This document shows, one piece after another, positions 6,870-22,366 of a stretch of DNA of 64,000 nucleotides. Source of the DNA: Actinomycetota bacterium. GTDB lineage: Bacteria; Actinomycetota; Actinomycetes; Mycobacteriales; Mycobacteriaceae. Every line of letters begins with the position of its first letter. Within the stretch, counting starts at the first letter, position 1. A program made the translations under genes and the position numbers. The notes below the pieces were generated by a model. That model did not search any database. It worked only from the letters and a program-made list of their open reading frames with translations, and had not been told where the DNA came from. The stretch is taken from the NCBI GenBank assembly GCA_018268465.1, contig JAFDWN010000020.1:1-64000 (forward strand), written 5' to 3'.

Positions 6870-7385
6870 CTAGAGCGGTGACGCACCGCGCAGGTGCTCG
6901 AAGATCAGCGACGTCTGGGTGCCCGCCACATCACCGTCGGCGTTGAGGTTCTCCACCACGAACGACCGCAGATCGTCGGTGTCGCGGGCGGCAACGTGCA
7001 GGATGAAGTCGTCGGCGCCGGCCAGGAAGTACACCTCGATGACCTGGGACTTGCGCCTGATCTGCTGGATGAAGTTGCGGATCTTGCCTCGCGCGTTGGA
7101 TTGCAGGGTCACCGAGATCATCGCCTGCAGCGGCAGCCCGATGGCCGCCGGGTCGACGTCGGCGTAGAAGCCGCGGATGACGCCCATCTCCTGCAGCCGC
7201 CGGACCCGGCCGTGACATGTCGACGCGGCGATGCCCACCAGCTCGGCCAGCGCGCTGTTGGGCATCCTGGCGTCGGCGTGGAGGGCGGTGAGGATGCGGC
7301 GGTCGACGTCGTCGATCTCGGTGGGCTGAACATCCTTCGGCGACCGGCCCGTCGCACGTGAGCCCTTCGCAGATTGTTCCGACAT
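6870..7385 (-). CDS. aldR: Lrp/AsnC-family regulator AldR
   Basis: This 171-residue Lrp/AsnC regulator has an N-terminal helix-turn-helix (LAELVGIAASTCHGRVRRL) and a C-terminal RAM ligand domain (segments VIEVYFLAGADDFILHV and SLIFEHLRG). It diverges from ald exactly as Rv2779c (AldR) does in M. tuberculosis, where the octameric regulator controls alanine dehydrogenase in response to amino acids. The basic and polar residues 1-22 precede the DNA-binding domain. The stop lies 12 bases from the end of the convergent carboxyltransferase gene. Confidence 0.9.
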   Translation of the reverse strand: MSEQSAKGSRATGRSPKDVQPTEIDDVDRRILTALHADARMPNSALAELVGIAASTCHGRVRRLQEMGVIRGFYADVDPAAIGLPLQAMISVTLQSNARGKIRNFIQQIRRKSQVIEVYFLAGADDFILHVAARDTDDLRSFVVENLNADGDVAGTQTSLIFEHLRGASPL

Positions 7386-7413
7386 TTGGCGATTCTATCG
7401 AATGATCGCCGAA
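7385..7413. promoter_or_regulatory. Candidate AldR operator in the aldR-ald interval
   Basis: Inverted arms GGCGAT (7388-7393) and ATCGCC (7405-7410) are separated by 11 bases and flanked by T-rich and A-rich ends. The site lies just upstream of aldR and about 70 bases before ald. Lrp-family proteins bind such spaced dyads, so this is a likely control site for one or both genes. Binding is inferred. Confidence 0.45.
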
Positions 7414-7478
7414 ATGATTGCCATCGTGCCGAAAGTTCTTCACAATTCTCGTAGCCCACCACGATACGAGGAGCGATC

Positions 7479-8591
7479 ATGCGCGTCGGCATCCCGACCG
7501 AGATCAAGAACAACGAATACCGCGTCGCCATCACCCCGGCGGGGGTCTCCGAACTCGTCCGCCGCGGCCACGAGGTGCTCGTGCAGGCCGGCGCGGGCGA
7601 GGGCTCGGCCATCTCCGATGCCGACTTCAAATCCGCAGGCGCGCAACTGATCAATGGTCCCGAACGGGTGTGGGCCGAAGCCGATCTCCTGCTCAAGGTC
7701 AAGGAACCGATCGAGCCCGAATACGCCCGTATGCGCAAGGGCCAGACGCTGTTCACCTATCTGCACCTGGCCGCTTCCAAGCCGTGCACCGACGCGCTGA
7801 TCACCTCGGGCACGACCTCGATCGCCTACGAGACCGTCCAGACAGCCGACGGCGCCCTGCCGCTGCTGGCCCCTATGAGTGAGGTCGCCGGCCGGCTGTC
7901 GGCCCAGGTCGGCGCGTATCACCTGATGCGCACCCAGGGCGGTCGCGGCGTGCTCATGGGCGGCGTCCCCGGCGTCGCCCCGGCCAACGTCGTGGTGATC
8001 GGTGGCGGAATGGCCGGCGACAACGCCGCCGCCGTCGCCTGGGGTATGGGTGCGCACGTCACCGTGTTCGACCTCAACATCAACATCTTGCGCAAGATCG
8101 ACGCCGAGTACGGCGGCGCCATCGAGACCCGCTACTCCTCGCGGCTGGACCTGGAGGACGCCGTCAAGCAGGCCGATCTGGTCATCGGCGCCGTGCTGGT
8201 GCCCGGCGCAAAGGCACCCAAGCTGGTGACGAATTCGACTGTGGCGGACATGAAGTCAGGCGCGGTCCTGGTGGACATCGCTATCGACCAGGGCGGCTGC
8301 TTCGAGGATTCGCGGCCCACGACCCACGACGAGCCCACCTTCGCCGTGCACGACACCGTCTTCTACTGCGTGGCGAACATGCCCGGCGCGGTGCCGCGCA
8401 CGTCGACGTTCGCGCTGACCAACGCGACGATGCCCTACGTGCTCCGACTGGCCGACAAGGGCTGGCGTGCCGCATGCCAGGCCGACCCCGCGCTGGCCAA
8501 GGGGTTGTCGACCCACGAGGGTGCCCTGCTCAACGAACAGGTGGCCGCCGATCTGAGCCTGCCGTTCACCGATCCCGCGACGCTGCTGTAG
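7479..8591 (+). CDS. ald: L-alanine dehydrogenase
   Basis: This 370-residue NAD-dependent enzyme interconverts L-alanine and pyruvate plus ammonia (and can reduce glyoxylate to glycine). Family residues are in place: Arg15 and Lys75 (VKEP) for pyruvate binding, His96 (TYLHLA), the [10 protein letters not shown] nucleotide-binding loop near residue 175, and the Asp in VDIAIDQGG near residue 270. The length is within one residue of the M. tuberculosis enzyme. GAGGAG lies six bases before the ATG. It is divergent from aldR, and transcription probably ends at the hairpin at 8617-8655. Confidence 0.97.
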
Positions 8592-8616
8592 CCGCGGCCG
8601 GACACAGCTTGTCTCC

Positions 8617-8655
8617 CATCGCCCGGTCTGCGCGCTCCGCGCGGGCCGGGCGATG
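8617..8655 (+). terminator. Hairpin terminator after ald
   Basis: Ten-base arms CATCGCCCGG (8617-8626) and CCGGGCGATG (8646-8655) enclose a GC-rich inner hairpin. No U tract follows, which is a common mycobacterial form. It lies 26 bases after the ald stop codon. Confidence 0.6.
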
Positions 8656-8687
8656 ATTCCGTTCCGGCCGGATCGCCATCGACATAG

Positions 8688-8701
8688 TTGACATCTGTCA
8701 A
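8688..8701. promoter_or_regulatory. Palindrome TTGACA-TC-TGTCAA before the GXWXG gene
   Basis: This perfect 6-2-6 inverted repeat ends 13 bases before the start codon of the GXWXG/DUF4334 gene. Its left arm is also an exact -35 hexamer, but the spacing leaves no room for a -10 box before the ATG, so an operator is the better reading. No regulator gene is adjacent. Confidence 0.45.
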
Positions 8702-8714
8702 GTACGGTGGGCGG

Positions 8715-9278
8715 ATGCTTCTCGACGAGCTGCTTCCCGCCGTGCCGCACACCACCGCCGACGCGCTGGCCGTCTTCGATTCCGCCCCGGCTGTCGAACC
8801 CGACGTCATGATCGGAACCTGGCGCGGCGCCGAAGTCCCCACCGGACACCCCTTGGACGGACTGCTCGAGGCCAGCGGATGGTGGGGTAAACAGTTCGTC
8901 GACGCCGAGACGGTGCACCCGCTGTTGTTCCCCGACGCCGCGGGCACAGCGGTGTGGGCACTCAACCCGCTCCTGGCGTTCACCGGCCTCGGACTGGTGA
9001 CCAAGGTGCCCGCGCTGCGAAATCGCTCCTACGCCAAGGCGATCCAGCGGTCACGGCCGGTGCTGGCGACCCGCGCGGCAAAGGCGCGGCTGCGCACCAC
9101 CCGCTACCGGGGCACCGACACGGCGACCATGATCTACGACCAGCTACCGATCAACGATGTGTTCCGCCGGCTTTCCGACGATGCGGTCCTCGGCGCGATG
9201 GACCTGCGCGGCTCCGCGCGTCCGTATTTCTTCGTGCTGCAGCGCGACACGACGATGGCTCTCAGAGCCGAGAGCTGA
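8715..9278 (+). CDS. GXWXG / DUF4334 domain protein
   Basis: The 187-residue soluble protein has an N-terminal GXWXG motif (GTWRG, residues 34-38) followed by a DUF4334 region with the segments GWWGKQFVDAETVHPLLF and YDQLPINDVFRRL. Members are small uncharacterised proteins, often next to lipid-metabolism or oxidoreductase genes; no activity can be assigned. The start is the ATG at 8715, preceded by GGTGGGCGG, which gives the usual N-terminus MLLDELL. An earlier in-frame codon at 8688 lies inside the upstream palindrome and is less likely. The gene is monocistronic between the ald terminator and the biosynthetic cluster. Confidence 0.8.
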   Translation: MLLDELLPAVPHTTADALAVFDSAPAVEPDVMIGTWRGAEVPTGHPLDGLLEASGWWGKQFVDAETVHPLLFPDAAGTAVWALNPLLAFTGLGLVTKVPALRNRSYAKAIQRSRPVLATRAAKARLRTTRYRGTDTATMIYDQLPINDVFRRLSDDAVLGAMDLRGSARPYFFVLQRDTTMALRAES

Positions 9279-9459
9279 CCGGGCAGCACATCTGCGTCGG
9301 GCGACGACCGCGCCGCGAGGGTGCGTCGCGCCCGGTGACCGGCCGGTTCGGCGTCGATCCGATTCGCCGTGACCGCGGTACAGAGGACAGTACGTCACCC
9401 CGCCGTCCGTCCCGATACATCGTGTCGGAGATTTTTGCCAGGAATGTGAACCAGAAGCC

Positions 9460-9465
9460 GATAAT
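9460..9465 (+). promoter_or_regulatory. Possible -10 element before the dar cluster
   Basis: GATAAT lies 45 bases before the darB start codon within a 230-base gap that otherwise shows no gene. A TTGCCA at 9435-9440 could act as a weak -35 with a long 19-base spacer. GGGAG seven bases before the ATG at 9510 is the ribosome binding site. This is the most plausible promoter of the forward biosynthetic operon, on weak evidence. Confidence 0.35.
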
Positions 9466-9509
9466 TCTCGTGTCCACACCACTGGCACCGGACGACCGGG
9501 AGCGACGAC

Positions 9510-10640
9510 ATGAGCGCATACATCACAGCCACGGGCAGGTTCCTACCCGGTGAGCCGGTATCGAACGAAGAAATCGAGGACTACATCGGCACGGCGGGTC
9601 GCGCCACCACCGATCTGCGCGACATCACCCTCGCGAACTGCGGCATCAAAACCCGCTATTACGCGATCGACAAGAACCAGCAAACCGTCATATCGAACGC
9701 AGCCATGGCAGCCGGCGCCGTGCGCAACGCCGTCGACCGTGCTGGAATCGGCCCTGGCGACGTCGAACTACTATGCGCAGCAACCACGATTGCCGACGTG
9801 CTGGCGCCCGGGCACGCCAGTATGGTGCACGGCGAACTGGGCTACGGCCCGCTGGAGATCGCCACCGCGCACGGTGTGTGCAGTTCGGGGATGATGGCCC
9901 TGAAGAACGCCTACCTGCAAGTGGCCGTGGGCGAGAAGCGGACCGCGGTCAGCGTGGCCAGCGAGTTCGCGTCCCGATTCTTCAAGAATTCCCGTTATGT
10001 CCAGATGGGAGCGACGGCCGACGAGGGCTCCCTGCCGCTCGAGGCCGCATTCCTGCGCTACATGCTCTCCGATGGCGCGGGCGCGATGGTGGTCTCGGAT
10101 CAACCGTCAGCGGCGGGGGTCAGCCTGCGCATCGACTGGATCTCGCTGACGTCCTACGCCAACACCGAGAAGGCGTGCATGTTCGGCGGCGCCACCGACA
10201 ACGCCCGTGCGCAGTCCTGGGGGGACTACCCGTCGGCCTCCGAGGCCGACGCCGCCGGCGCACTGGTGCTGCGGCAGGATCTGTCGCTGCTTCCCCACCT
10301 GGTGAAAGTCGGAGTCGACGAGTACGAACGTCTGCTCGCTCTTGGCAGGTTCGATCCGGCGACGTTGACCTGGATTCCCGCGCACTATTCGAGCGAGCGT
10401 ATGAAATCCATTGTCTTCGGCGAATTCTCGCGACGCGGAGTGGATGCCGGCACGCCCGACATGTGGTACAGCAACCTGACCAGTGTCGGCAACATCGGCA
10501 GCGCCTCGATGTACATCATCCTCGACGAGATGCTCACCGAGGGATTGATCAAGGACGGCGACACGCTGCTGTGCATGGTTCCGGAATCCGGCCGGTTCGC
10601 GATTTCCTTCATGCATCTGACGGCGGTGGAATCCCGGTAA
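9510..10640 (+). CDS. darB: DarB-like beta-ketoacyl-ACP synthase III
   Basis: This 376-residue thiolase-fold condensing enzyme has the KAS III catalytic triad in order: Cys124 (HGVCSSG), His292 (WIPAH) and Asn328 (SVGNIG). Its length, divergence from FabH and the immediately following DarA partner place it with the DarB ketosynthases of dialkylresorcinol and flexirubin clusters, which join two fatty-acid-derived chains by Claisen condensation. GGGAG stands seven bases before the ATG. The stop overlaps the darA start as TAATG. A stand-alone FabH role in fatty acid synthesis is unlikely given the operon. The chain lengths of the substrates cannot be read from sequence. Confidence 0.85.
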   Translation: MSAYITATGRFLPGEPVSNEEIEDYIGTAGRATTDLRDITLANCGIKTRYYAIDKNQQTVISNAAMAAGAVRNAVDRAGIGPGDVELLCAATTIADVLAPGHASMVHGELGYGPLEIATAHGVCSSGMMALKNAYLQVAVGEKRTAVSVASEFASRFFKNSRYVQMGATADEGSLPLEAAFLRYMLSDGAGAMVVSDQPSAAGVSLRIDWISLTSYANTEKACMFGGATDNARAQSWGDYPSASEADAAGALVLRQDLSLLPHLVKVGVDEYERLLALGRFDPATLTWIPAHYSSERMKSIVFGEFSRRGVDAGTPDMWYSNLTSVGNIGSASMYIILDEMLTEGLIKDGDTLLCMVPESGRFAISFMHLTAVESR

Positions 10641-11584
10641 TGGCCCGGGCAGCCGGGGAGGAGGCGCGCGGCCGGCAGGACCCGCGCGCGACGGTCTATC
10701 TCTACACCCAGACCGGACAGCTGCGCGAGGTTGCCGAGGCATTCACCGCGCCGCTGACCGCCAGCGGATGGGACATCAGCTGGGTCGAGGTGACACCCCA
10801 AGTGGCGTATCCGTTCCCGTGGCCCGTTCGGCGGTTTTTCGGGGTGTTCCCCGACGCGGTGGATCCCGACGCGCTGGTGGAACTCGTCGACCCGGCCGGT
10901 GGCTTCGGCACGAATGCCGGCGATGTGGTGATCCTGGCCTCCCAGGTGTGGTACCTGTCCCCCTCACTCCCGATCCGCTCGCTGCTCACCACCCATCCCG
11001 AGGCGTTTCGCGACCGGCACGTGGTGTCGGTGATCGCGTGCCGCAACATGTGGTACTCCGCGGCGATCGAGACCGCGGCGCTGCTGCGGTCGGCCGGTGC
11101 GCGCAGCGTGCGAACGGTTGTCGCGACCGACACACGACGCTCGGCGACCACGCTGGTGACCACGCTGCGCTGGCTGCTTACCGGAAAGCGCGAACCATTC
11201 CTGTGGTTCGGGCGTGCCGGGGTCGGCCCCGACGAACTCGCCAGAGTCGAAGCGGTGGGACGGGACGTTGCCGAGTCGAGGCCGTTACCGGTTGACGCGG
11301 CTCTTGTCGTGCCCGCCCTTGCCGCCGCAGATCTATTCGCGGGCAGGGTGTTTCGGCGGTGGGGAGCGAAGATCCGGTCGGCGCGGCGGTTCGGCGCGGC
11401 CGCGTATGCCGCCGGCCTCACCGCCTTCGCGCTCACGCTGGGGATTGCCATCGTGGTCGGCCTGCCGGTGATCGGATTGGCGGCGCTGGCCGGCGGCGCG
11501 CGCTTCGCGACGGGTGTTCGCGAGTACACGGCCCGCCGGATCACGTTCGGCGACACGGCGGTCCATCCGGAGGTCGAGATATGA
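10640..11584 (+). CDS. darA: DarA-like dialkylresorcinol condensing enzyme
   Basis: The 314-residue protein matches the DarA family from end to end. It has a flavodoxin-like start (VYLYTQTGQLREV), a PYPFPWPVRRFFGVFPD block, ASQVWYLSPSLPIRS, an ACRNMWYSA block and TTLRWLLTGKREPF. A long hydrophobic stretch at about residues 255-295 should form one or two membrane segments, so the enzyme is probably membrane-tethered near lipid substrates. DarA works with DarB to cyclise two coupled beta-ketoacyl chains to a dialkyl cyclohexanedione, the precursor of a 2,5-dialkylresorcinol. The start is fused to the darB stop, and the end is 13 bases from the ACP gene. DarA is best known from Proteobacteria and Bacteroidetes, so its presence in a mycobacterial backbone is notable. 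Confidence 0.85.
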   Translation: MARAAGEEARGRQDPRATVYLYTQTGQLREVAEAFTAPLTASGWDISWVEVTPQVAYPFPWPVRRFFGVFPDAVDPDALVELVDPAGGFGTNAGDVVILASQVWYLSPSLPIRSLLTTHPEAFRDRHVVSVIACRNMWYSAAIETAALLRSAGARSVRTVVATDTRRSATTLVTTLRWLLTGKREPFLWFGRAGVGPDELARVEAVGRDVAESRPLPVDAALVVPALAAADLFAGRVFRRWGAKIRSARRFGAAAYAAGLTAFALTLGIAIVVGLPVIGLAALAGGARFATGVREYTARRITFGDTAVHPEVEI

Positions 11585-11597
11585 CGGAACGCCGACG

Positions 11598-11855
11598 ATG
11601 ACCCCCGAGTCCACCCATCGGGAACTGGTCGACTGGCTGACCACCAAAGTGGCCGGATACCTCAACGTGGCCCCCGACGTGATCGACGACGACACCCCGC
11701 TGGCCGACTACGGAATCGACTCGGCGGCAAGTCTGGCGTTGTGCGCCGACCTCGAATGCGAGAAGGGCTACGCCGTCGACACCACGATCGTCTGGGACTA
11801 CGCGACCATCGCAGCCATCGCCACCCACCTCGTGTCCGGGCAGGCCGCGCCGTGA
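11598..11855 (+). CDS. Free-standing acyl carrier protein
   Basis: The gene encodes an 85-residue four-helix carrier protein. The phosphopantetheine site is Ser42 in YGIDSAASLAL, which departs slightly from the usual GxDSL motif by having Ala after Ser. The start at ATG 11598 keeps the full first helix; a longer frame upstream runs through darA and is not real. The stop overlaps the GTG start of the PKS gene (GTGA), showing translational coupling. It probably carries the fatty acyl starter loaded by the FAAL, or one of the two chains joined by DarB. The phosphopantetheinyl transferase PptT encoded at 28.5-29.2 kb is a likely activator. Confidence 0.9.
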   Translation: MTPESTHRELVDWLTTKVAGYLNVAPDVIDDDTPLADYGIDSAASLALCADLECEKGYAVDTTIVWDYATIAAIATHLVSGQAAP

Positions 11856-14815
11856 CACCCATCGCGGTGGTCGGCATCGACTGCCGCTTCCCCCGCGCAC
11901 CCGACAAGGACGCGTTCTGGCGGCTGATGATGGACGGTGTCGTGACCGACACCGAGGTGCCGCCGCAGCGCTGGGACGTCGACACCTACTACCACCCCGA
12001 CGGCGTCGCCGGCACGATGAACACCCGGCGCGCACACTTCATCGACGACGCGGACGCCTTCGACAACGAGTTCTTTGGCATCGCACCCGTCGAGGCGGCC
12101 GCACTGGATCCGCAGCACCGGCTGCTGCTGCAGTCGTCGTGGCGAGCGCTCGAGGACGCGGCCATCGACCCGCGGTCGCTGGCCGGCACCCCGACCGGGG
12201 TGTACGTCGGGGTCATGTCCAGCGAGTGGAGCACCCTGCAGATCATCGACTTCGCCCGGCTGTCCGCGGTGCGCGGCACCGGCAGCGGGTATTTCATGGC
12301 GGCCAATCGCATCTCCTACCACCTCGGCCTGACCGGCCCGAGTATGGCTATCGACTCCGCCTGTTCGTCCTCGCTGCTGGCGATCCAGCAGGGATGCGCC
12401 GCGCTGCGCGCCGGGGACACCGACACCGTGATCGCTGCCGGAGCGAATCTTCTTCTGATACCTGCGCTTTCGATCTTCTACACCCAGGCGCGACTGTCAG
12501 CGCCCGACGGGCGCTGCAAGCCGTTCGGACGGGACGCCGACGGCATCGGCCGCGGTGACGGCGTGGCAGCGGTGGTGTTGCGCCGACTCGACGACGCCCT
12601 CACCGACGGGCAGCCGATCTACGCGGTGGTCAAGAGCTCCGTCGCCAACCACGACGGGCGCAGCAACGGGATCACCGCGCCGAACCGTCGCGCGCAGGTG
12701 GCGCTGATGCGGCGCGCGCTGGAGCTGGCGGGGGTCGACGCGGGACAGCTGTCCTTCGTCGAGGCACACGGCACCGGCACGGTTCTCGGCGACATGATCG
12801 AGGCCAACGCGCTGGGCGACATCCACCGGACCCGGGGCGGCGCACCGTGCCTGCTGGGTTCGGTCAAGGGCAATATCGGCCACACGGAGGGCAGCGCGGG
12901 GATCGCCGCATTCGTCAAGGCGTGCCTGGCCCTGCACCACCACACGCTGCCGCCGACGGTGTACGGCGAGGCCGCCAATCCGCGGCTGCGGCTCGACGAC
13001 AACGGTCTGCGGCTCGCCCACGGCCCCGAGCAGCTGCCCGCCGCGGGCTCTCTCGGGGCGGTCAGCTCGTTCGGGCTGGGGGGCAGCAACGCCCATGTGG
13101 TGCTCGAGGCGGCCCCGGTCACCACGCCACCCCCGCCCGGACGATACGGCGTCCTGACGCTGTCGGCGCCCTCCCCGCAGGGCCTGCGGCGCAATGCCGG
13201 TGCGGCCGCAGACGCGCTGGAAGCGGTCGACGCCACGCAGGTAGCCGGCTGGTGCCGGACCACCAACGCCGTCAAACGGGCGTTCCGGGACCGCGTCGTA
13301 CTCGCCGGCGACCGCGACACGATCCTCGACGGCTTACGGCGGTTCGCCGCGGGAGCCCACACCGGCCCGGCGTCCTCGGCACCGCCGCGCGGCGCCCCGG
13401 CCCGGATCGGATTGCTGTGTTCCGGGCAGGGCACCCCGTTCCCCGGCATGACCCGGCCCCTGTACGACACCAATCCGGTCTATCGCGCCCATCTCGACGC
13501 CGTCGTCGGCGCACTCGACCCGCACCTGCAATCGCCGCTGCTCGCGGTGATCCTCGGTGAGCGGCCCGGCCTCGACGACACCGCGCTGGCACAGCCCGCC
13601 TTGTTCGCGGTGTCCTATGCGCTGGGAAAGACGTTGCTGCAGAGCGGAATCCGGATCGCTTTCGGCATCGGCCACAGCCTTGGCGAGGTGAGCATCGCAT
13701 GCCTGGCCGGCATCCTGCCGGTCGGGGACGCGGCCCGGCTCGTCGCCGCCAGGGGCCGGTTGATGGCCTCGCTGCCCCCTGGCGGGGCGATGTTCGCCGC
13801 CGATCTCGGCACCGAACGTGCCGAGGCCGCCCTCGCCGAGGCGCCGGGCTGCGTCATCGCCGCGATCAACGGCCCGACCGCGCTGACCATCTCCGGACCC
13901 ACCGACGCCGTGGCGGTCGCCCGTGCCGCGATCCGGCGCCACGGCGGCAGGACGACGGATCTCACGGTGTCACACGCGTTCCATTCGCCGCTGATGGAGC
14001 CCATCGTGGCGCAGTTCCGCGGCGAACTGGCCGGGTTGCAGCCGGACGCCGCCGATTTCCCGGTGTACTCCACGGTGCTGGGCGCACCGGTCGACGGCCA
14101 CGATATGGACGCCGACTACTGGGCACGCCAGATCTGCGCACCGGTGCGGTTTCTCGACGCCGTCCGCGGCGCGCTGGACGCGGTGCCCGCCGACTACGTC
14201 GCCGAAGCGGGACCGCGGTCCACACTGTTGACACTGGCCCGCAAATGCGGACTCCCCGCGGACATCCCGTCGATGGTGCTGTGCGGTGGGCCCGATGCAC
14301 CGGGCACCGAGCTGCTCGAGGCGGCCGCGACGCTGCTGCGGGACGGCTATTCACCGGATTTGACGGCGCTGTCCGGCCATCCGGGCGGCCAGCTGAACCG
14401 GCTCCCGCCGTACGTCTTCGATACATCCCGCCGCTACTGGTTCGATCATGCGGTGACCGTCGTCACGGACACTCCAGGACCTGCCGGGGAGGACGCAGCC
14501 GGCCCCGCAGATGACGCGCAACGGGGAGCCGACAGCGCGGTGCTCCGCCTGATCGCCGAGATCGGCGGCTATCCCCTGACCGAGCTGACGCCCTCAAGCC
14601 GCCTCGCCGAGGATCTCGGCTACGACTCACTGCTGCAGCTCCGCCTGCTCGACCGGCTGCGCACCGAGTTCCCCACCTTGGCCGACGTCACGGTCGCCGA
14701 CGTGCTTCCGAAGATCCACAGCGTAGGCGATCTCGTCGACTTCGTCGTGCAGCGGCTCGATCAACGCGTGACGTCCGACGGACGCCACGGTGGCGTGGCA
14801 CCGGAAGGGAGTTGA
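11852..14815 (+). CDS. Single-module non-reducing type I PKS (KS-AT-ACP)
   Basis: The 987-residue synthase has three domains. A ketosynthase (residues 1-420) has Cys171 in DSACSSS and His306 and His344 in EAHGTGT and GNIGHTEGS. An acyltransferase (about 518-840) has Ser609 in GHSLGE and a HAFH signature at 708-711, which indicates malonyl-CoA. An ACP (about 893-968) has Ser926 in LGYDSLLQL. There is no ketoreductase, dehydratase, enoylreductase or thioesterase. One extension without reduction gives an ACP-bound beta-ketoacyl chain, the substrate type a DarA/DarB pair uses. The GTG at 11852 overlaps the ACP stop, and the end overlaps or abuts the FAAL gene. Product release is presumably by DarB. 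Confidence 0.93.
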   Translation: MTPIAVVGIDCRFPRAPDKDAFWRLMMDGVVTDTEVPPQRWDVDTYYHPDGVAGTMNTRRAHFIDDADAFDNEFFGIAPVEAAALDPQHRLLLQSSWRALEDAAIDPRSLAGTPTGVYVGVMSSEWSTLQIIDFARLSAVRGTGSGYFMAANRISYHLGLTGPSMAIDSACSSSLLAIQQGCAALRAGDTDTVIAAGANLLLIPALSIFYTQARLSAPDGRCKPFGRDADGIGRGDGVAAVVLRRLDDALTDGQPIYAVVKSSVANHDGRSNGITAPNRRAQVALMRRALELAGVDAGQLSFVEAHGTGTVLGDMIEANALGDIHRTRGGAPCLLGSVKGNIGHTEGSAGIAAFVKACLALHHHTLPPTVYGEAANPRLRLDDNGLRLAHGPEQLPAAGSLGAVSSFGLGGSNAHVVLEAAPVTTPPPPGRYGVLTLSAPSPQGLRRNAGAAADALEAVDATQVAGWCRTTNAVKRAFRDRVVLAGDRDTILDGLRRFAAGAHTGPASSAPPRGAPARIGLLCSGQGTPFPGMTRPLYDTNPVYRAHLDAVVGALDPHLQSPLLAVILGERPGLDDTALAQPALFAVSYALGKTLLQSGIRIAFGIGHSLGEVSIACLAGILPVGDAARLVAARGRLMASLPPGGAMFAADLGTERAEAALAEAPGCVIAAINGPTALTISGPTDAVAVARAAIRRHGGRTTDLTVSHAFHSPLMEPIVAQFRGELAGLQPDAADFPVYSTVLGAPVDGHDMDADYWARQICAPVRFLDAVRGALDAVPADYVAEAGPRSTLLTLARKCGLPADIPSMVLCGGPDAPGTELLEAAATLLRDGYSPDLTALSGHPGGQLNRLPPYVFDTSRRYWFDHAVTVVTDTPGPAGEDAAGPADDAQRGADSAVLRLIAEIGGYPLTELTPSSRLAEDLGYDSLLQLRLLDRLRTEFPTLADVTVADVLPKIHSVGDLVDFVVQRLDQRVTSDGRHGGVAPEGS

Positions 14816-14820
14816 GTCTC

Positions 14821-16461
14821 GTGAGCGTCTTCACTCGCGGAATACTTGCCGCGGCGGCATCCTCGCCACGCTGTCTGACCGCGGTCGCGGGCCCCGATCC
14901 CACCCGGCTCACCTGGCGCGAAGTCCACGAGCGGGCCGTCCCCATGGTGGCCGCACTGGCCGAACGGGGTGTGGGCCGGCACGGCTCCGTCGCGGTACTC
15001 GCCGCCGACCCCGCCGAGGTGGCCCCGCTGGCGCAGGCGGTCTGGCTGCGCCGCGCCGCGCTCACCATGTTGCAGCAGCCGACCCCACGCGTCGACCTCG
15101 AGGTCTGGCTGGCCGACACCGTGCGGGCCATCCGGACGATCAACGCCGACCTCGTCGTGCTCGGCGAGCCCTTCACGATGGCACACAATCAGCTCAGCGC
15201 CCACGACCTCGACGTCTGTGACATCGAATCACTCTGCAGCACAACAGTAATCGCCGACGACGGAGTGGATCATGCCGATGAGGCGGACCTCGCGATCCGT
15301 CAACTGACGTCCGGGTCCACCGGCCAGCCGAAGGCCGTCGAAATCAGCCATGGCAATCTCGCCGCCAATGCCGTCGCGCAGCGCGACGCACTCGACCTCG
15401 ACCTCGACACCGACGTGATGCTGAGCTGGCTGCCCCTCTCCCACGACATGGGCATGATCGCCTTCGTCTGCTTCCCGATGCAGATGGGCATCGAGTCCGT
15501 CGTCGTCACCCCCGAACATTTCCTGCGTCGCCCCATCATCTGGGCCGAGCTGATCAGCCGGTACCGTGCCACCATCACCTCGGGCCCCAACTTCGCCTAC
15601 TCGGTGCTCACCCGGGTACTCCGCCGGGCCGACCCGACCGGGATCGACCTGTCCTCGCTGCGGGTCGCGGTGAACGGCGCCGAGCCCGTCAACCATCACG
15701 ACATCGCCGAGTTCGCCGCCGTCGGCGCGCGATTCGGCCTCCAGCCGACCGCGCTGATGCCCGGCTACGGACTCGCCGAGGCGACACTGGTCGTCTCGCT
15801 GGGATCGCCGCACGAACCACCGGCCGTCGACACCGTCTCGAGGCAGGCCCTCATCCAGGACCACCGTGCGCAGCCGGTCGCAGACACCTCGCAGGACGTA
15901 CGGCACATCGTGTGCTCGGGCCGTCCGGTCCCCGGCATGCGGGTACGCATCACCCGGGACGGAAACACCCTGGCGCCCAGGGAGATCGGCGCCATCGAAC
16001 TGCGCGGTCCTGCCGTGGCCCGCAGCTATCTCACGACCGACGGTGTGGTGCCGCTGGCCAACGATCGGGGATGGTTCGACACCGGAGACCTCGGTTACCT
16101 CGACGAGGACGGCCGGGTCTACGTCTGCGGCCGCAGCAAGGATCTCATCGTGGTGGCCGGGCGCAACCTCTACCCGCACGACATCGAAAGAGCCGCCGAG
16201 AACGTCGAGGGGGTGCGCAAAGGCTGCGTGATCGCGCTGCGCGTCGACGCCGATCACGAGGGCTTCGCGGTGCTGGCCGAGGTGCACGACCCCGACGACG
16301 AGGACGCGCGCCGGCGTATCGGCCGGGAGATCACCGCCCGGGTGAGCCGCCACGTCGGGCACCTGCCCAGCGAAGTCCGCCTGTTTCCCCGCGGCACCCT
16401 GCCCAAGACGCCGTCGGGCAAGCTGCGCCGGGACCGGGCCCGCGACCTGCTCCACATCTGA
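14821..16461 (+). CDS. fadD: Fatty-acyl-AMP ligase (FAAL)
   Basis: This 546-residue adenylating enzyme activates a fatty acid and passes it to an ACP. It has the ATP-binding loop QLTSGSTGQPKAVEISH, a MPGYGLAEATL motif, the FDTGDLGYLDEDGRVYVCGR hinge region and the catalytic Lys in KTPSGKLRRDR. Mycobacterial FAALs of this type pair with PKSs. The chosen start is GTG 14821, with GGAAGGGAG nine bases upstream; an in-frame TTG at 14812 overlaps the PKS stop and would add three residues. It is the last gene of the forward operon and converges on the methyltransferase gene 17 bases away. The predicted partner is the free ACP or the PKS ACP. Confidence 0.9.
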   Translation: MSVFTRGILAAAASSPRCLTAVAGPDPTRLTWREVHERAVPMVAALAERGVGRHGSVAVLAADPAEVAPLAQAVWLRRAALTMLQQPTPRVDLEVWLADTVRAIRTINADLVVLGEPFTMAHNQLSAHDLDVCDIESLCSTTVIADDGVDHADEADLAIRQLTSGSTGQPKAVEISHGNLAANAVAQRDALDLDLDTDVMLSWLPLSHDMGMIAFVCFPMQMGIESVVVTPEHFLRRPIIWAELISRYRATITSGPNFAYSVLTRVLRRADPTGIDLSSLRVAVNGAEPVNHHDIAEFAAVGARFGLQPTALMPGYGLAEATLVVSLGSPHEPPAVDTVSRQALIQDHRAQPVADTSQDVRHIVCSGRPVPGMRVRITRDGNTLAPREIGAIELRGPAVARSYLTTDGVVPLANDRGWFDTGDLGYLDEDGRVYVCGRSKDLIVVAGRNLYPHDIERAAENVEGVRKGCVIALRVDADHEGFAVLAEVHDPDDEDARRRIGREITARVSRHVGHLPSEVRLFPRGTLPKTPSGKLRRDRARDLLHI

Positions 16462-16477
16462 CGTACGCCACGCCCCG

Positions 16478-17563
16478 CTACACCGCCCGCGCCTCGACGA
16501 GGCTGATCGGCGCCGCCGTGGGCACCACCCGCGACACCCGGAATCCGCCGGCCTCAAGCAGACGGCGATACTGCGACTCCGTGCGGTCACGGCCGGCCTG
16601 CATCACCAACATCTCCAGATCGCTCCAGTGACCGACGTGTTCGCGGGTGTGGCTGGGGATCACGAGTTCGATCAGCAGGACCGTCGCACCCGGCGTCGCC
16701 GCCGCCCGGACGTTTCGCAGTATCTCGACGGCCTTCTCGTCGGGCCAGTCGTGGATGACCTGTTTGAGCATGTAGAGGTCCCCGCCCCGGGGTACGCCGT
16801 CGAAGAACGACCCCGGTACCACCCGCACCCGATCCGCGACCTGATAGCGATTCAACACCGCCGGGGCGTCGGCGACAGCCTGCGGCAGGTCGTAGAGGAC
16901 ACCGCGCGACTTCGGCGCTGCCGCCATGACCGCCGCGAGCAGCCTGCCCACCCCACCGCCGATATCGACGATGGTCGGATAGGCATCGAAGGCGTATGCC
17001 GCGGTGATCGGATCCACCACCATCTCGGTGGTGTCCGCCATGGCCTGATGGAAGATGTCGGCCAGATCGGGCTCTCGCAGCAGCAGGTCGAACGCGTCGA
17101 TTCCGTGCACCGCCGTGATCATCGACCCGCCGGTCCGCACGGCGTCGGGCAGGTAACTCCACAGTTCACGGTGGTGGCGCGAACCGACCATGCGGGCCAT
17201 CCCGGCGACCGACAGCGGCACACCGGAACGCAAGGTACCGGCGAGCGAATTCAGCGCGTAGCGACCGTCGCGGCTGCGACGGAATACCCCCCGGCCGGCC
17301 AATGCCCGCATCAGGCGGCCCAGCGCGTCGGGATCGGCGTGCACACGGCCTGCCAACTCGTCCACATCCAACGGTCCGTCGTCGAGCGCGTCCGCGACAC
17401 CGAGTTCCGCGGCCGTCGAGATCGCCTGCGCCGTCCACGCATTGAGGATCAACTCCATCATCACCGCATGGGGCGGAGCCGTGCGCAGATACAGCCGGGA
17501 CAAGGTGTGACGCCCCCGCTCGACGAGGCGGGCCACCGTGGGCGGCGGAACGCGAGCAGACAT
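16478..17563 (-). CDS. SAM-dependent O-methyltransferase
   Basis: The 361-residue enzyme is of the plant-type/acetylserotonin O-methyltransferase family. It has an N-terminal winged dimerisation domain (residues 30-110) and a C-terminal Rossmann domain with the SAM loop DIGGGVGRL near residue 200. The catalytic His is in LKQVIHDWPDE. Such enzymes methylate phenolic hydroxyls, which fits a resorcinol product. The ATG at 17563 follows GGAAGGAG by five bases and overlaps the VOC gene stop (TGATG). It is the last gene of the reverse tailoring operon. Confidence 0.88.
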   Translation of the reverse strand: MSARVPPPTVARLVERGRHTLSRLYLRTAPPHAVMMELILNAWTAQAISTAAELGVADALDDGPLDVDELAGRVHADPDALGRLMRALAGRGVFRRSRDGRYALNSLAGTLRSGVPLSVAGMARMVGSRHHRELWSYLPDAVRTGGSMITAVHGIDAFDLLLREPDLADIFHQAMADTTEMVVDPITAAYAFDAYPTIVDIGGGVGRLLAAVMAAAPKSRGVLYDLPQAVADAPAVLNRYQVADRVRVVPGSFFDGVPRGGDLYMLKQVIHDWPDEKAVEILRNVRAAATPGATVLLIELVIPSHTREHVGHWSDLEMLVMQAGRDRTESQYRRLLEAGGFRVSRVVPTAAPISLVEARAV

Positions 17564-18054
17564 CAACGCTCCTTCCGGTGATCGCCTGCCGGCTGCCCAA
17601 CGCCGATGCGGGCGAGTACGTCAGCCGGATCCACCTCCTCGGACCGTCCGCCGTCCGCGGCGATTCCCGCGCCGGTCGCTGGATCCGAGAGCAGACACAC
17701 GGCCACATCGGTGCCGTTGGGATCGCGGAACCACAGTGTCGTCCTGTCCGCCCGACAGGTCGCCCGGTACGGGCGAGAACCCAATTCCGCCAACCGATTC
17801 ACCATGGGTCGCACCGCCTCGAGGTCACCGGGCATCAGGGTGACGGCGGTGACACCGCTGGCCTCCGGGTGATAGTCGAGCGCGATCTGTGACCGCTCTA
17901 TCACGACTCCCAGATCGGGTCCGGTGACGGCCGTCGCCCGGGTATCCAGCGGCCGGGGTGGGCTGCCGATCAGCGCCGCCCACCACGCCACCATCTCGGC
18001 GGGACGGTAGGTGAGCAGCCGCAATTCGACGACCGGCGACATCACCTCACACAT
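17563..18054 (-). CDS. VOC (glyoxalase/dioxygenase fold) protein
   Basis: The 163-residue protein has a vicinal-oxygen-chelate fold: paired beta-alpha-beta-beta-beta units with the segment TLWFRDPNGTDVAVCLL typical of the C-terminal strand. Metal ligands are not obvious, so it may bind or isomerise an aromatic intermediate rather than act as a classical glyoxalase. The start at ATG 18054 overlaps the hydroxylase stop by eight bases and has a GGAGG-containing site upstream; an alternative ATG at 18042 would remove four residues. The position between hydroxylase and methyltransferase genes implies a role in ring tailoring. Substrate unknown. Confidence 0.75.
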   Translation of the reverse strand: MCEVMSPVVELRLLTYRPAEMVAWWAALIGSPPRPLDTRATAVTGPDLGVVIERSQIALDYHPEASGVTAVTLMPGDLEAVRPMVNRLAELGSRPYRATCRADRTTLWFRDPNGTDVAVCLLSDPATGAGIAADGGRSEEVDPADVLARIGVGQPAGDHRKER

Positions 18055-19846
18055 ACGCGGTCCCCCCTTCCTCCGCCCGGGGCGCTACGGCGGCGACCGC
18101 AAGCGCCTGCCCCAGATCAGCGGGGCCGTGCCGGTCCGACCTCAGCAGCGCCGCGATGTGACCGTCGGGCCGGACCACGAGGGCGTCCGGATCGGCACCG
18201 GCCACGCCCGTGTGGAATACCGTGTCGCCGGCATCACCGAGGGCCACCACCGAGAACGGGAGGCCCGCTGCCGCCTGCGACCACGCCTGCCGAGCCCGCG
18301 CCGATACCAGCAGTGTCAGGTCATCACTGCTGAGCAGATCCAGGGTCGACACCCGCCGGCCACGCTGCTCGACCCAGCTGTGCGGCAGCCGGCCGCCGGC
18401 GCGCACCAGGGGCGTGTAGAACTCGACATCGCCCGGCGGCAGCGGCAGGCCGTCGCCGACCACGGCCCCGCGGCGGTAACACACCCCGAGATCACGCCCC
18501 CAGCTGCGGTAGTGCGGGCCCTGGCCCTCCACCGCCTGCGCGGCCCGGCGCCGCAGCCGCCTGCCGAGCGGACCCCGTGACGCCGCCAGCGCCAGCGGGC
18601 GGTACCCCAATGTGGTGAGGCCGCGGATGGCCGCCCGCACGGGTCGCCGCGGCACCCACCCGGGGACGGCGTCGACGGCACGCGGCAGCGCCAACACGGC
18701 CCGGCGCGACATTCCCAGTGCGGCAACGACATCGAACAGCCGCTCGTAGTTGGCGACCGAATCGGCGGTGGTGTCGAGCGCCACCGGGCGGCGTTCCTGT
18801 TCATAGGTGTCCAGCAGAGCGTCGCCGGCCCGGCCGGTGATGACCCACGCCAGTTTCCACGCCAGGTTGTGCACATCGGCGACGCCGGCGTTGAGCCCCA
18901 GCCCTCCGGTGGGCGGAAAACGATGCGCCGCGTCGCCGACCAAGAAGACACGGCCGGTCCGGTACCGGGTGGCGACCTGGGCGTGCATCGCCCACGACGT
19001 GATCGACGTGATCCCGACCTCGACACCGGGATCGCCGATCGCGTCGACGATGTGCTTGCGACACACCTCGGCCGGGAAATCGTCCAGCGACTCGAACGGC
19101 GGAAAGTACGGGATCTGGAACACCAGGTCGTGCGGCGATCGGTGCACGATGACGACGCCCAGCCCGGTGCCGGTGTGCGTCCACATAACGGGACCACGAC
19201 GTGCACGCCGAAAAGGTTCGAGATCGGCGGAGAAGTGCACGCTGATCACGTGGTTGAGGACGGGGCCTGCCATGGAGACGCCGAGCGCCCGGCGCACCGC
19301 GCTGGCGGCGCCGTCGGCGCCGAGCACATACCGCGCCCGGACGGTGCGGCCGGATCCGGTCGCGGCGTCGGCGACGCTGACCACGACGCCGTCAGCCGCC
19401 TCACGGTGACCGACGTACCGCCAGCCGGTGCACACGTCGACACGCCCGCAGTCGTGCAGGCCTCGCCACAGCAGCGGCTCGAGGATGGTCTGTGGCAGGT
19501 GCGCGCTACGGGTGGGGCTGATCGATTCGATTGCGTCGAACTGGAAGTCGGGCATATCCGCCAGCGGCACCCGCCCGAGTTCGGGGCCGGCCAGCGTGGT
19601 GCAGTAGGTGATGCACCGCAACTCGTGCATCGGGGCGCTGAGTCGGCGGATGTCACGCTCCAGCCCGATCTCACGCCAGATCTCCAGCGACCGCGTCGAG
19701 AGCACGTGTGCGGCCGGGTGGCGCTGGGCCGCGGCGCGCGCCTCGATGACGGTGCTGGAGATGCCGTACTCGGCAAGCAGCAGTGCCGCGGTCGCACCCA
19801 CCGGTCCGGCGCCGACGATCAAGACGTCGCACGTGTCGTTCACCAC
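18047..19846 (-). CDS. FAD-dependent aromatic hydroxylase (PHBH fold)
   Basis: This single-component flavin monooxygenase of about 600 residues has the FAD GxGxxG loop (VLIVGAGPVGATAALLLAE), the DG motif (LGADGAASAVRRALG) and the GD motif (VFLVGDAAHRFPPTGGLGLN). A C-terminal thioredoxin-like extension (about 470-590) is typical of phenol and hydroxyphenylpropionate hydroxylases. GGTGGAGGT sits upstream of three closely spaced in-frame GTG codons at 19855, 19846 and 19843; 19846 gives the best spacing. It is the first gene of the reverse operon. It should hydroxylate the aromatic ring, or oxidise a cyclohexanedione made by DarA/DarB, using NAD(P)H and oxygen. The last role is speculative but would explain the absence of a DarC-like aromatase. 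Confidence 0.88.
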   Translation of the reverse strand: MVNDTCDVLIVGAGPVGATAALLLAEYGISSTVIEARAAAQRHPAAHVLSTRSLEIWREIGLERDIRRLSAPMHELRCITYCTTLAGPELGRVPLADMPDFQFDAIESISPTRSAHLPQTILEPLLWRGLHDCGRVDVCTGWRYVGHREAADGVVVSVADAATGSGRTVRARYVLGADGAASAVRRALGVSMAGPVLNHVISVHFSADLEPFRRARRGPVMWTHTGTGLGVVIVHRSPHDLVFQIPYFPPFESLDDFPAEVCRKHIVDAIGDPGVEVGITSITSWAMHAQVATRYRTGRVFLVGDAAHRFPPTGGLGLNAGVADVHNLAWKLAWVITGRAGDALLDTYEQERRPVALDTTADSVANYERLFDVVAALGMSRRAVLALPRAVDAVPGWVPRRPVRAAIRGLTTLGYRPLALAASRGPLGRRLRRRAAQAVEGQGPHYRSWGRDLGVCYRRGAVVGDGLPLPPGDVEFYTPLVRAGGRLPHSWVEQRGRRVSTLDLLSSDDLTLLVSARARQAWSQAAAGLPFSVVALGDAGDTVFHTGVAGADPDALVVRPDGHIAALLRSDRHGPADLGQALAVAAVAPRAEEGGTAYV

Positions 19847-19986
19847 GTTCGGCACACCTCCACCTGCAGGGCGGTGTCGTCACGGTGGCGGCGCCGTATC
19901 GGTGGACTGCGCGCCGGATCACGACGGCGCGCAGCAGAGTTCGAGCTGCGCACCGATCATAACCGTGCGGGGAGCGGGCGACGGTG

Positions 19987-20895
19987 CTAGCCGCGGAGCA
20001 CTTCGGGCAGGATCTGCGCGGCGAGTTCGCCGATCAGCGGCCGCAGCGTCGGTGCCGCCGCATCGTCCCCATCGGAGCGGGTCATCAGCGCCAACAGCAC
20101 CCGCTGCCCGTCCGGACCGTAGGCGATGCCGACGTCGTTGGTGGTGCCGTAGTCACCGGCCCCGGTCTTGTCGGCACTGGTCCATCCCGGCGGCAGCCCC
20201 GCGCGCATACTCGACGTCTGGTTGGCGCGCATCCACGCGTCGAGCCGGTCACGCTGCGCCGGCGCCAGCGCGTCGCCGGCCAGCAGGCGTCGATACCCGC
20301 CGCCGAGCGCGGCTGGTGTGCTGGTGTCGCGGGGGTCCCCCGGTATGGCCGAGTTCAACGCGGTTTCCCACCGGTCCAGCCGGGTCTCCCCGTCGCCGAT
20401 CGTGCGGGCGTAGCGGGTGATCTCCGCGGGACCGCCGATCACCCGCAGCAGCCAGTTCGCCGCGGTGTTGTCGCTCTGCTGCAGCGCCGCCTGGCACAAC
20501 TCGTCGAGCGTCATGGTGCGGCCCACGCGCGTCTCGGTGACCGGGGCGTGGGCCACGATGTCGGCGGGTTCGATGGTGACCGAGTCGTCGAGCGACAGTT
20601 CGCCGCGTTCGGCCTTCTGCAGGACGCGTGCGGCGGCGTAGGTCTTGAACGTCGAGCACATCGCGAACCGTTCCTGGGCGCGGTGCGTGACGGTCCGCGG
20701 CGAGTCGAGATCCGCGGCGAACACACCGATGAGGGCACCGTGGCCACGTTCCAGGGCGGCGATCCTGTCCTCGATCGGCGGCAGGGGCTCCGCCGGATCG
20801 GACAATGTCGGCGGCGCGGGACCGGACGGCGGCTGAGCACATCCGGTCAGCGCGGCGAGGGCGATGCCGCCGAAAAGTACGGTGCGGCGCGACAT
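19987..20895 (-). CDS. bla: Class A beta-lactamase lipoprotein
   Basis: This 302-residue serine beta-lactamase has all class A motifs: S-T-F-K with the nucleophile Ser81, S-D-N at 141-143, Glu177 in the omega loop ([10 protein letters not shown]) and K-T-G at 243-245. The start is the ATG at 20895, which puts a twin-arginine-like [10 protein letters not shown] directly before a hydrophobic core and lipobox LTGC (Cys19). The enzyme is thus exported and lipid-anchored, as for mycobacterial BlaC. It keeps the SDN Asn typical of fast growers. It lies between the biosynthetic cluster and pepR, 30 to 40 bases behind pepR. It is not at the Rv2068c locus, so it may be a paralogue. Confidence 0.93.
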
Positions 20896-20944
20896 TGCTG
20901 TAACGGGGTTGTCACCGGTCTCTGCCCGCCGGGCCGGGAATCGG

Positions 20945-22366
20945 TCAGCCCGCAATGGCCTGCAGGCGAACCGGAAGCGTATCGGGCGTCTGGTGCGGGC
21001 CGAGTACCGCGGCGCCGTAGGACCGCGTCAGCAGGCGGTGGGCCACCGCGTTCACCTCGTCGAGGGTCACCGCGTCGATCTGCGCGAGGGTGTGCTCGAT
21101 ACTGCGGTGCTCGCCGTAGTTCAGCTCGCTGCGACCGATCCGGTTCATCCGCGACGCGGAATCCTCCAGACCGAGCACCAGCCCACCGCGCAACGACCCC
21201 TTCGCGATCCGGCACTCGGACTCGGTGATGCCATCGCGCGCAACATCTTCCAGCACATCGGTGGTCACCCGCACCACTTCGTCGAACCGTTCGGGCAGAC
21301 ACGCGGCGTAGATGGACAGTGCCCCGCTGTCGGAGAAGGTGTCCACCGTCGAATACACCGAGTAGGCCAGCCCGCGGGTCTCGCGAATCTGTTGGAACAG
21401 ACGCGAACTCAGGCCGCCGCCCAGCGCGCTGTTGAGCACCGAGAGTGCCCAGCGGTGGTCCCAGTGCCGACCGGGTGTGCGCACTCCCAGCGATAGGTGG
21501 GTCTGTTCGGCATCGCGGTCGACCACGTGCAGCGACGGTTGACCCGGCACCCTGCCGGTGCCGCGCCGCGGGGGCGCCGCGGTGCGACCGCGCACCAGGC
21601 GCGCACCGAAATGCTCCCGGACCAGCGCGACGACCTCGTCGTGGTCGATGTTGCCCGCCACCGCCACGACCATCCGTTCGGGGATGTAGCGGCGGACGTG
21701 GAACGAGTGCAGCTGTGTGCGCGTCATCGCCGAGATCGACTCCACACTGCCGATCACCGGGCGGCCGACGGGGTGCGCCCCGAACATCGCCGACAGGAAG
21801 ACGTCGCCGAGGGTGTCCTCGGGGTCGTCGTCGCGCATGGCGATCTCCTCCAGGACGACGTCGCGTTCCAGCTCGACATCGTCGCCCGCGCACCGCCCGT
21901 TGAGCACCACATCGGCGACCAAGTCCACGGCCAGCGCCAGATCCGTGTCGAGCACATGGGCGTAGTAGCACGTGTGCTCGCGCGCCGTGAAGGCGTTCAG
22001 CTCGCCGCCGACCGCATCGACGGCCTGCGCGATCTCCACTGCCGAACGTGTCGGAGTCGACTTGAACAGCAGGTGTTCCAGGAAATGCGCGGCGCCCGCG
22101 ACGCTCCTGCCCTCGTCGCGTGAACCCACGCCCACCCAGACGCCGACGGATGCCGACCGCACCGACGGGATGAACTCGGTGACGACCCGCAGACCACCGG
22201 GCAGCGTGGTCCGCCGCACGGTGGCCGACGTCGGGGCGTCACGGCGGGCGCCGCGCAGCGCGCGGCGACCCGTCGTCCGTCCCGGGGCGTCACCCCGCTG
22301 TCCGTGCGGGGGGTGTCCCCGGCGCTCCCGACCCGCGGAGCCGTCAGTTACTGGCGGTCGCTGCAT
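20945..22366 (-). CDS. pepR: M16 zinc metalloprotease PepR
   Basis: The 473-residue protease is the M16B family member found next to gpsI/pnp in mycobacteria (Rv2782c). The inverted zinc motif HFLEH lies near residue 85 (two His plus Glu), followed by [20 protein letters not shown] and the C-terminal M16 domain ([21 protein letters not shown]). The start is the ATG at 22366, inside the last codons of pnp, so the genes overlap by 23 bases. The first 45 residues are basic and unconserved, and the conserved protein begins at [15 protein letters not shown]. It is cytosolic; substrates are probably peptides. Confidence 0.92.

Follow-up and report, generated by a model that had tools for sequence, protein, structure and literature searches.

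A 64,000-nucleotide stretch of a mycobacterial contig (JAFDWN010000020.1; the whole stretch is called the window below) contains a cluster of eight genes built around relatives of DarB and DarA, the enzyme pair of dialkylresorcinol (DAR) formation. The cluster also encodes a free acyl carrier protein (ACP), a type I polyketide synthase (PKS), a fatty acyl-AMP ligase (FAAL), an O-methyltransferase (OMT), a VOC-fold protein, and a flavin-dependent hydroxylase. We consider it probable, at roughly 65%, that this block encodes a Dar-type lipid pathway that itself supplies one of the two chains, leading to a predicted methoxylated dialkylhydroquinone-type lipid. The observations behind this reading are homology, active-site motifs that are intact, the insertion of the genes as a single block, and co-occurrence, and from these we infer every reaction in the organism.

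The DarB candidate scored 363.6 bits against the NCBIfam StlD/DarB model, compared with 76.3 bits for the best FabH-type model. Its nearest solved relative in the PDB is StlD (5gk0, 241 bits), which we take to be the stilbene cyclase of Photorhabdus, with the next family at 52 bits; StlD is the one characterized DarA/DarB-type protein that was compared directly. At least 97% of 98 aligned DarBs share Cys124, His292, and Asn328. In a quick tree, the actinobacterial relatives and the sequences of the window's DarB type (class-1) formed one clade of 27 rows with a support of 100 on a long branch (0.95), and the 14 core-type rows from mycobacteria formed one with a support of 99; a careful search was unfinished, and its FabH-like rows were poor. 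The protein belongs to a divergent actinobacterial branch of StlD/DarB-type enzymes.

The DarA candidate matched no Pfam or NCBIfam model and had no sequence relative in the PDB. A profile built from 14 Gram-negative DarA relatives, none of them itself a characterized DarA, picked it out as the sole match in the window (181.6 bits, E 5.7e-55). Searches with tblastn placed DarA homologues directly next to DarB in Gram-negative genomes, for example in Pseudomonas cichorii (L097, 33%), and an alignment of 28 sequences retained invariant residues and motifs around YSQTGQL, YPFPWP, WYLSPSLP, and RNMW. Profile score, shared motifs, and adjacency to DarB together bear out the DarA-like identity that an earlier note on this DNA had proposed. 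DarA might be expected to have a flavodoxin-like fold; the Pseudomonas relative matched a flavodoxin model (E 3.5e-4).

DarA was present at 46 of 103 DarB loci and always lay within about 0.45 kb of DarB; the 103 loci count six genomes twice (40 of 97 when duplicates are removed), and 27 of the 46 had been used to train the DarA profile. The other 57 loci have no DarA, so DarB alone is common. Since all 46 DarA genes lie this close to DarB, and the gene set recurs in other genomes, the pairing is not due to chance. A comparison of 27 distinct actinobacterial loci with this type of DarB, window included, showed DarA beside DarB in every one; one of these loci is broken (L063).

DarA-like genes of other lengths were also observed. 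The DarA frames of Nocardia amamiensis (L053, 436 codons) and N. transvalensis (L056, 429 codons) are longer than usual, are divergent from DarB, and have relatives of the OMT (43-45%) and of type I PKSs as neighbors; Pfam gave no match for the long L053 protein. In 76 genus genomes that have no full-length DarA there is a shorter DarA-like protein (61-90 bits). Genes of this kind lie at 5538-6260 in L161, near PapA_C, LCM, and nitroreductase genes, and at 5856-6563 in L163 and 5649-6329 in L164, both with PKS fragments nearby; L162 also matches.

The ACP, PKS, and FAAL would form a supply module. The free ACP keeps the DS pair of its phosphopantetheine site in 18 of 18 aligned sequences, and the KS and ACP motifs of the PKS are likewise kept in all 18, as is the AT motif GHS.GE. 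In 16 of the 18 the AT carries HAFH, presumably the mark of a malonyl-type domain. A Pfam domain search found no reductive domain (KR, DH, or ER) in the PKS, which is predicted to make a beta-ketoacyl-ACP. The PDB matches of the FAAL place it nearer the fatty acyl-AMP ligases than the CoA ligases: the best is 3kxw at 201 bits (deposited as saframycin Mx1 synthetase B, which we take to be a FAAL), followed by the fatty acyl-adenylate ligase 3pbk (196), FadD23 (159), and FadD32 (152), compared with 87 bits for the best 4-coumarate-CoA ligase; some entries in between are deposited as acyl-CoA synthase. The enzyme is predicted to load a fatty acid onto the free ACP.

A PKS search at E <= 1e-250 in 396 genomes of the genus returned 20 matches, 18 at 61-100% identity and two at 54% and 48%. 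The 18 genomes (at least 61%) all carry a DarB-family gene: they comprise 14 of the 15 class-1 genomes and all four with a second mycobacterial DarB type (class-2, L044-L047), and their PKSs form one clade with a support of 100. Within this sample the PKS goes with DarB-type enzymes, the same PKS lineage serving two DarB types. The two more distant PKS relatives, in L204 (G342, 54%) and L205 (G341, 48%), are accompanied by ACP and FAAL relatives and no DarB match, apparently the same supply module with other partners. The module itself varies: L029 has a thioesterase-family gene between PKS and FAAL, and a gap of that size recurs in all four class-2 loci and in six further class-1 loci, though not in the window. 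L036, L037, and two Streptomyces plasmids have an extra ACP gene immediately before DarB, and DNA similar to it was recognized by eye in L039-L041.

For the minus-strand genes, the hydroxylase has its nearest solved relative in 2-hydroxybiphenyl 3-monooxygenase (4cy6, 256 bits), with 2,4-dichlorophenol 6-monooxygenase also among the nearest; its closest solved relatives are thus named as hydroxylases of substituted phenols. The OMT matched AlpH (8h3t, 299 bits). A hydroxylase homologue above 150 bits is present in 23 of the 27 distinct actinobacterial loci and the OMT in 12 of the 15 mycobacterial class-1 loci, window included in both counts. A ring-cleaving role for the VOC protein was considered and rejected, as no His is invariant among ten aligned sequences.

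All eight reading frames are open, intact, and tightly packed in two convergent units, as the earlier note had described (Table 1). On the plus strand, DarB and DarA overlap by TAATG, ACP and PKS by GTGA, and PKS and FAAL by 4 bases; on the minus strand, the overlaps are 8 bases (hydroxylase/VOC) and 4 bases (VOC/OMT). The overlaps reported earlier are therefore seen, and a 13-base gap separates DarA from the ACP gene. The reported position between ald and pepR likewise agrees with the neighbors: ald (7479-8591) lies to the left, and a beta-lactamase-family gene (19987-20955) followed by an M16 peptidase (20945-22456), presumably in the place of pepR, to the right.

Table 1. Genes of the cluster and the inserted block, in window coordinates
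Feature	Position	Strand	Details
DarB: StlD/DarB-type ketosynthase/cyclase	9510..10640	+	376 aa, Cys124-His292-Asn328
DarA: predicted aromatase of Dar pathway	10640..11584	+	314 aa; Gram-negative DarA profile
Free ACP	11598..11855	+	PP-binding 51.2 bits; G[IL]DS phosphopantetheine site
Type I PKS, KS-AT-ACP	11852..14815	+	Pfam domains
FAAL (fatty acyl-AMP ligase)	14812..16461	+	AMP-binding; PDB matches
OMT, Methyltransf_2 with dimerization domain	16478..17566	-	Pfam 165 bits
VOC-fold protein	17563..18054	-	Glyoxalase_6 24.7 bits
FAD-dependent aromatic hydroxylase (FMO)	18047..19855	-	FAD_binding_3 293 bits + Rng_hyd_C
Inserted block	9250..20023	no strand	no counterpart at same site of eight other genomes

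The cluster is one insertion. Aligned by blastn to the empty-site relative G314 (L209), the window matches at 6874-9249 and then at 20024-20764, with 128 bases between the two parts in L209; a 10.8-kb window interval with all eight genes inside thus stands for 128 bp. The order Lrp, ald, pepR, PNPase, and rpsO, with at most about 1.1 kb unassigned between neighbors, is kept in all eight genomes examined, and the block is missing from the ald-pepR site in all of them; five carry a Dar cluster elsewhere, and three gave no match in the DarB search. Because the inserted interval contains all eight genes, the minus-strand tailoring genes belong to the cluster unit. At 19 other genus loci compared, the window's ald, beta-lactamase-family gene, and PNPase have no match, and a gene further left has a single weak one (29%, in L037), which indicates that the cluster occupies other places there. 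The GC content of the cluster (69.7%) is nearly that of the window (68.9%), so composition is uninformative. The assembly has a contamination estimate of 5.86%; around ald, the contig nonetheless shows synteny with other mycobacteria.

We also considered whether a conserved operator or leader precedes DarB. The window leader (9380-9510) folds better than all 200 shuffles (z -3.8), and the close relatives L029 and L031 share the arms of a repeat upstream of DarB. The idea was rejected despite this fold, since no inverted repeat common to 14 upstream regions of DarB was seen; promoter and terminator scans stayed at chance level.

The gene content suggests the following route. The FAAL would activate a fatty acid and load the free ACP, and the KS-AT-ACP module would extend the chain once without reduction to a beta-ketoacyl thioester. 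A FAAL-loaded ACP and a KS-AT-ACP module lacking KR, DH, and ER would thereby yield precisely the beta-ketoacyl substrate of DarB. In the cyclohexanedione-forming ketosynthase class, the substrates are a beta-ketoacyl and an alpha,beta-unsaturated acyl thioester (PMC4578411). DarB would condense and cyclize these two into a dialkyl-cyclohexanedione, the unsaturated partner probably coming from general lipid metabolism, and DarA would oxidize the ring to give a 2,5-dialkylresorcinol. Next, the flavin hydroxylase would add a ring hydroxyl ortho to one phenol, and so para to the other, to give a hydroquinone. Finally, the OMT would cap one hydroxyl, leaving a methoxylated dialkylhydroquinone that could be oxidized to a quinone.

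The earlier note had called for a Dar profile search of mycobacterial genomes. Full-length DarA and full-length DarB of the window's type occur in the same 15 of the 396 genus genomes. The DarB search (E <= 0.001) matched 90 genomes, 15 with a full-length protein at 63-100% (window included), four at 37-38%, 70 with weak matches of at most 35 bits, and one with a fragment. The DarA profile matched 91, 15 of them at 356-385 bits and 76 with the shorter match only. The 14 other class-1 mycobacterial loci all have DarA; ACP and PKS are found in 13, the FAAL (at least 64%) in 13, a hydroxylase above 200 bits in 12, the OMT in 11, and the VOC gene in nine. An MmpL transporter adjoins the cluster or lies within about 2.3 kb of it in five of the 15 class-1 genomes, the window not among them (Pfam identity was checked in three of the five). 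Relatives outside the genus come from Nocardia, Streptomyces (linear plasmids included), Streptacidiphilus, Actinoplanes, and Dactylosporangium; the contig scan covered the best 80 of 267 relatives. The earlier note called Dar enzymes best known from Gram-negative bacteria; such genes also occur outside that group.

Two further observations concern DarB loci. The fragment, in L043 (G163), covers 130 residues at 82% near a contig end, and the rest of the cluster was not seen on that contig. Two Streptomyces linear plasmids (L027 and L028) carry DarB-DarA-hydroxylase clusters together with ACP, SCP2, KS, P450, and multicopper oxidase genes; the plasmid annotation lists their DarA as a hypothetical protein.

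The second mycobacterial DarB type (L044-L047, in G113, G382, G216, and G045) is 36-38% identical to the window DarB and passes the StlD/DarB cut-off in the two of four proteins tested (L044, 517 bits; L045, 510 bits). It is adjoined by ACP, PKS, and FAAL relatives (60-70%), and in L044 also by an ABC-2 transporter and an LCM methyltransferase. In these four genomes neither the locus nor the genome search gave a DarA; the predicted product is a lipid cyclohexanedione. Between the two mycobacterial types, DarB identity is 36-38% and PKS identity 61-65%, a contrast that favors partner exchange. Two separate acquisitions of DarB in mycobacteria were considered and set aside: the quick tree parts the types, but a single clade was not rejected (p-AU 0.096). 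Such paired clusters, with related PKSs beside DarB plus DarA or beside another DarB without DarA, offer a natural comparison of resorcinol and cyclohexanedione formation.

Several points weigh against the proposed pathway. Its product and chemistry are predictions made here from genes alone; for the hydroxylated, methylated dialkylresorcinol of the earlier note, this means that gene content and single insertion fit, while the compound itself stays a prediction. The block has no gene for making the unsaturated partner chain, and the VOC protein has no assigned step. The DarB score lies below the curated StlD/DarB cut-off of 450 bits, a naming threshold, and the exception model gave 318.5 of 550; the protein is accordingly filed as a divergent branch and not under the named subfamily, while its closeness to StlD and its catalytic residues support the Dar homology claimed earlier. 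The best NCBIfam model of the FAAL is named long-chain-fatty-acid--CoA ligase (694 bits), ahead of MbtM (338 bits) and fatty acyl-AMP ligase (331 bits). G358 has DarB-DarA and a 32% hydroxylase without this PKS. In the stretches read, L033 has no OMT and a hydroxylase match of only 112 bits about 5 kb beyond the FAAL, and L037 has neither homologue, which implies that the core can exist without this tailoring set; next to the FAAL of L037 lie a flavin-oxygenase-like gene with a weak match and an unrelated methyltransferase (Methyltransf_11, 87 bits). Of little weight either way is a T1pks-Resorcinol region listed for one Mycobacterium strain in an antiSMASH table, at 7% to Sch47554/Sch47555 (PMC6351551). 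The listing means that such clusters have been flagged before. The earlier claim that no mycobacterial system of this make-up has been described thus holds for characterized ones, as literature searches of open-licence papers found no characterized mycobacterial DarA/DarB product, but not for flagged regions.

Loci such as L033 and L037 raise the question of whether the tailoring genes act on the ring at all. The core might make a plain or acylated dialkylresorcinol while the hydroxylase, VOC protein, and OMT have another substrate and merely accompany it. The variable tailoring set, with a hydroxylase only 37% identical in L039 and L040, and the acyltransferase-family gene beside DarB in L033 would suit this; it is set against an inserted interval that takes in all three tailoring genes and a hydroxylase homologue in 23 of 27 actinobacterial loci, and we judge it unlikely. 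The long branch and the score under the cut-off would also fit a DarB that has drifted to another condensation, giving an alpha-pyrone or a linear beta-diketone, with DarA as an oxidoreductase serving it, and pyrones are made by other ketosynthases that join two acyl chains (PMC4578411). With DarA kept in all 27 loci of the clade, and the catalytic residues and StlD-like sequence retained, such drift seems distinctly improbable.

The cluster could also be taken for one of the polyketide-quinone (pkq/srs) operons known from mycobacteria. In M. smegmatis and Streptomyces, a type III PKS makes an alkylresorcinol that a methyltransferase and an oxidoreductase convert to a benzoquinone, and these polyketide quinones serve as alternative electron carriers (PMC9927152, PMC5916927). 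The logic of a resorcinol core followed by methyltransferase and oxygenase is the same, and some clusters of either kind are flanked by MmpL transporters from a single subfamily. We nevertheless find this identification hardly credible: this genome has no PF00195 match, neither the window OMT nor its hydroxylase has a match by tblastn at the pkq-like loci L158 and L159 (E 1e-3), and the L158 methyltransferase belongs to the ICMT family. In G123 the Dar-linked MmpL has a nearer paralogue than the pkq-linked one, and the subfamily counts several (four more at 56-64% in G123, four at 63-68% in G000), so a shared MmpL was rejected as proof of a shared product. The cluster falls outside the pkq/srs kind, to which only a functional analogy would connect it. 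Simple replacement of a type III PKS was likewise rejected, since all 14 other class-1 genomes have a PF00195 match, which argues against mutual exclusion. In the genus, 354 of 396 genomes have such a match and 42 have none; the 354 is an upper bound, as a control search also matched E. coli and a match is no proof of a type III PKS. As a separate observation, L158 (G054) and L159 (G123) are type III PKS loci whose MmpL belongs to the subfamily that is also seen at some Dar clusters, and L158 has a 340-aa FAD enzyme beside its ICMT-family methyltransferase.

Beyond the proposed Dar-type pathway, a bolder proposal, which we put forward as speculative and rather doubtful, is that the cluster makes a second class of mycobacterial lipoquinones. 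These would be 2-alkyl-3-methoxy-5-alkyl-1,4-benzoquinones or hydroquinones that come from DarB/DarA and not from a type III PKS, with genes that sit in an inserted block and, in some relatives, next to an MmpL exporter, and with an envelope or redox carrier role like that of polyketide quinones; the class-2 sister type would make lipid cyclohexanediones. The cluster as such would extend two-chain resorcinol chemistry to mycobacterial lipids and show a FAAL-ACP-PKS module feeding a beta-ketoacyl chain to DarB. It would also offer a genetically simple test of a mycobacterial lipoquinone route other than the type III PKS.

Among known systems, DarB chemistry is reportedly covered by Fuchs 2013 and the M. 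smegmatis quinones by Anand 2015. StlD, the closest solved homologue of the window DarB, uses a cinnamoyl-derived chain, for which the window block has no genes. In the literature, DarB is named DAR-cyclase and DarA DAR-aromatase (PMC3949708); heterologous expression of Cpin_6850/6851 yielded DAR (PMC3992019), and darA and darB mutants of Pseudomonas chlororaphis lost their resorcinol (PMC6403133). The clusters of Chitinophaga pinensis, Flavobacterium johnsoniae, P. chlororaphis, and Azoarcus share with ours a DarB cyclase and a DarA aromatase for a two-chain ring. Unlike them, the window operon includes a type I PKS that has no reductive domains, along with a FAAL and a free ACP; its DarB is divergent, the order is DarB-DarA, and a hydroxylase and OMT are attached. 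By domains, none of its eight genes is an aryl-polyene gene. Cyanobacterial bartoloside-like clusters also carry DarA/DarB homologues in their dialkylresorcinol class, but that set was chosen for CylC halogenases, which the window's eight genes do not include, and FAAL and ACP are named for its type I PKS class (PMC8406957). The pkq/srs operons share the logic of resorcinol, O-methylation, and oxidation, steps that are predicted for the window, and differ in core synthase, in an OMT and hydroxylase without a match at the loci compared, and in one ring chain instead of the predicted two. We rate the window cluster as a variant of the Dar kind.

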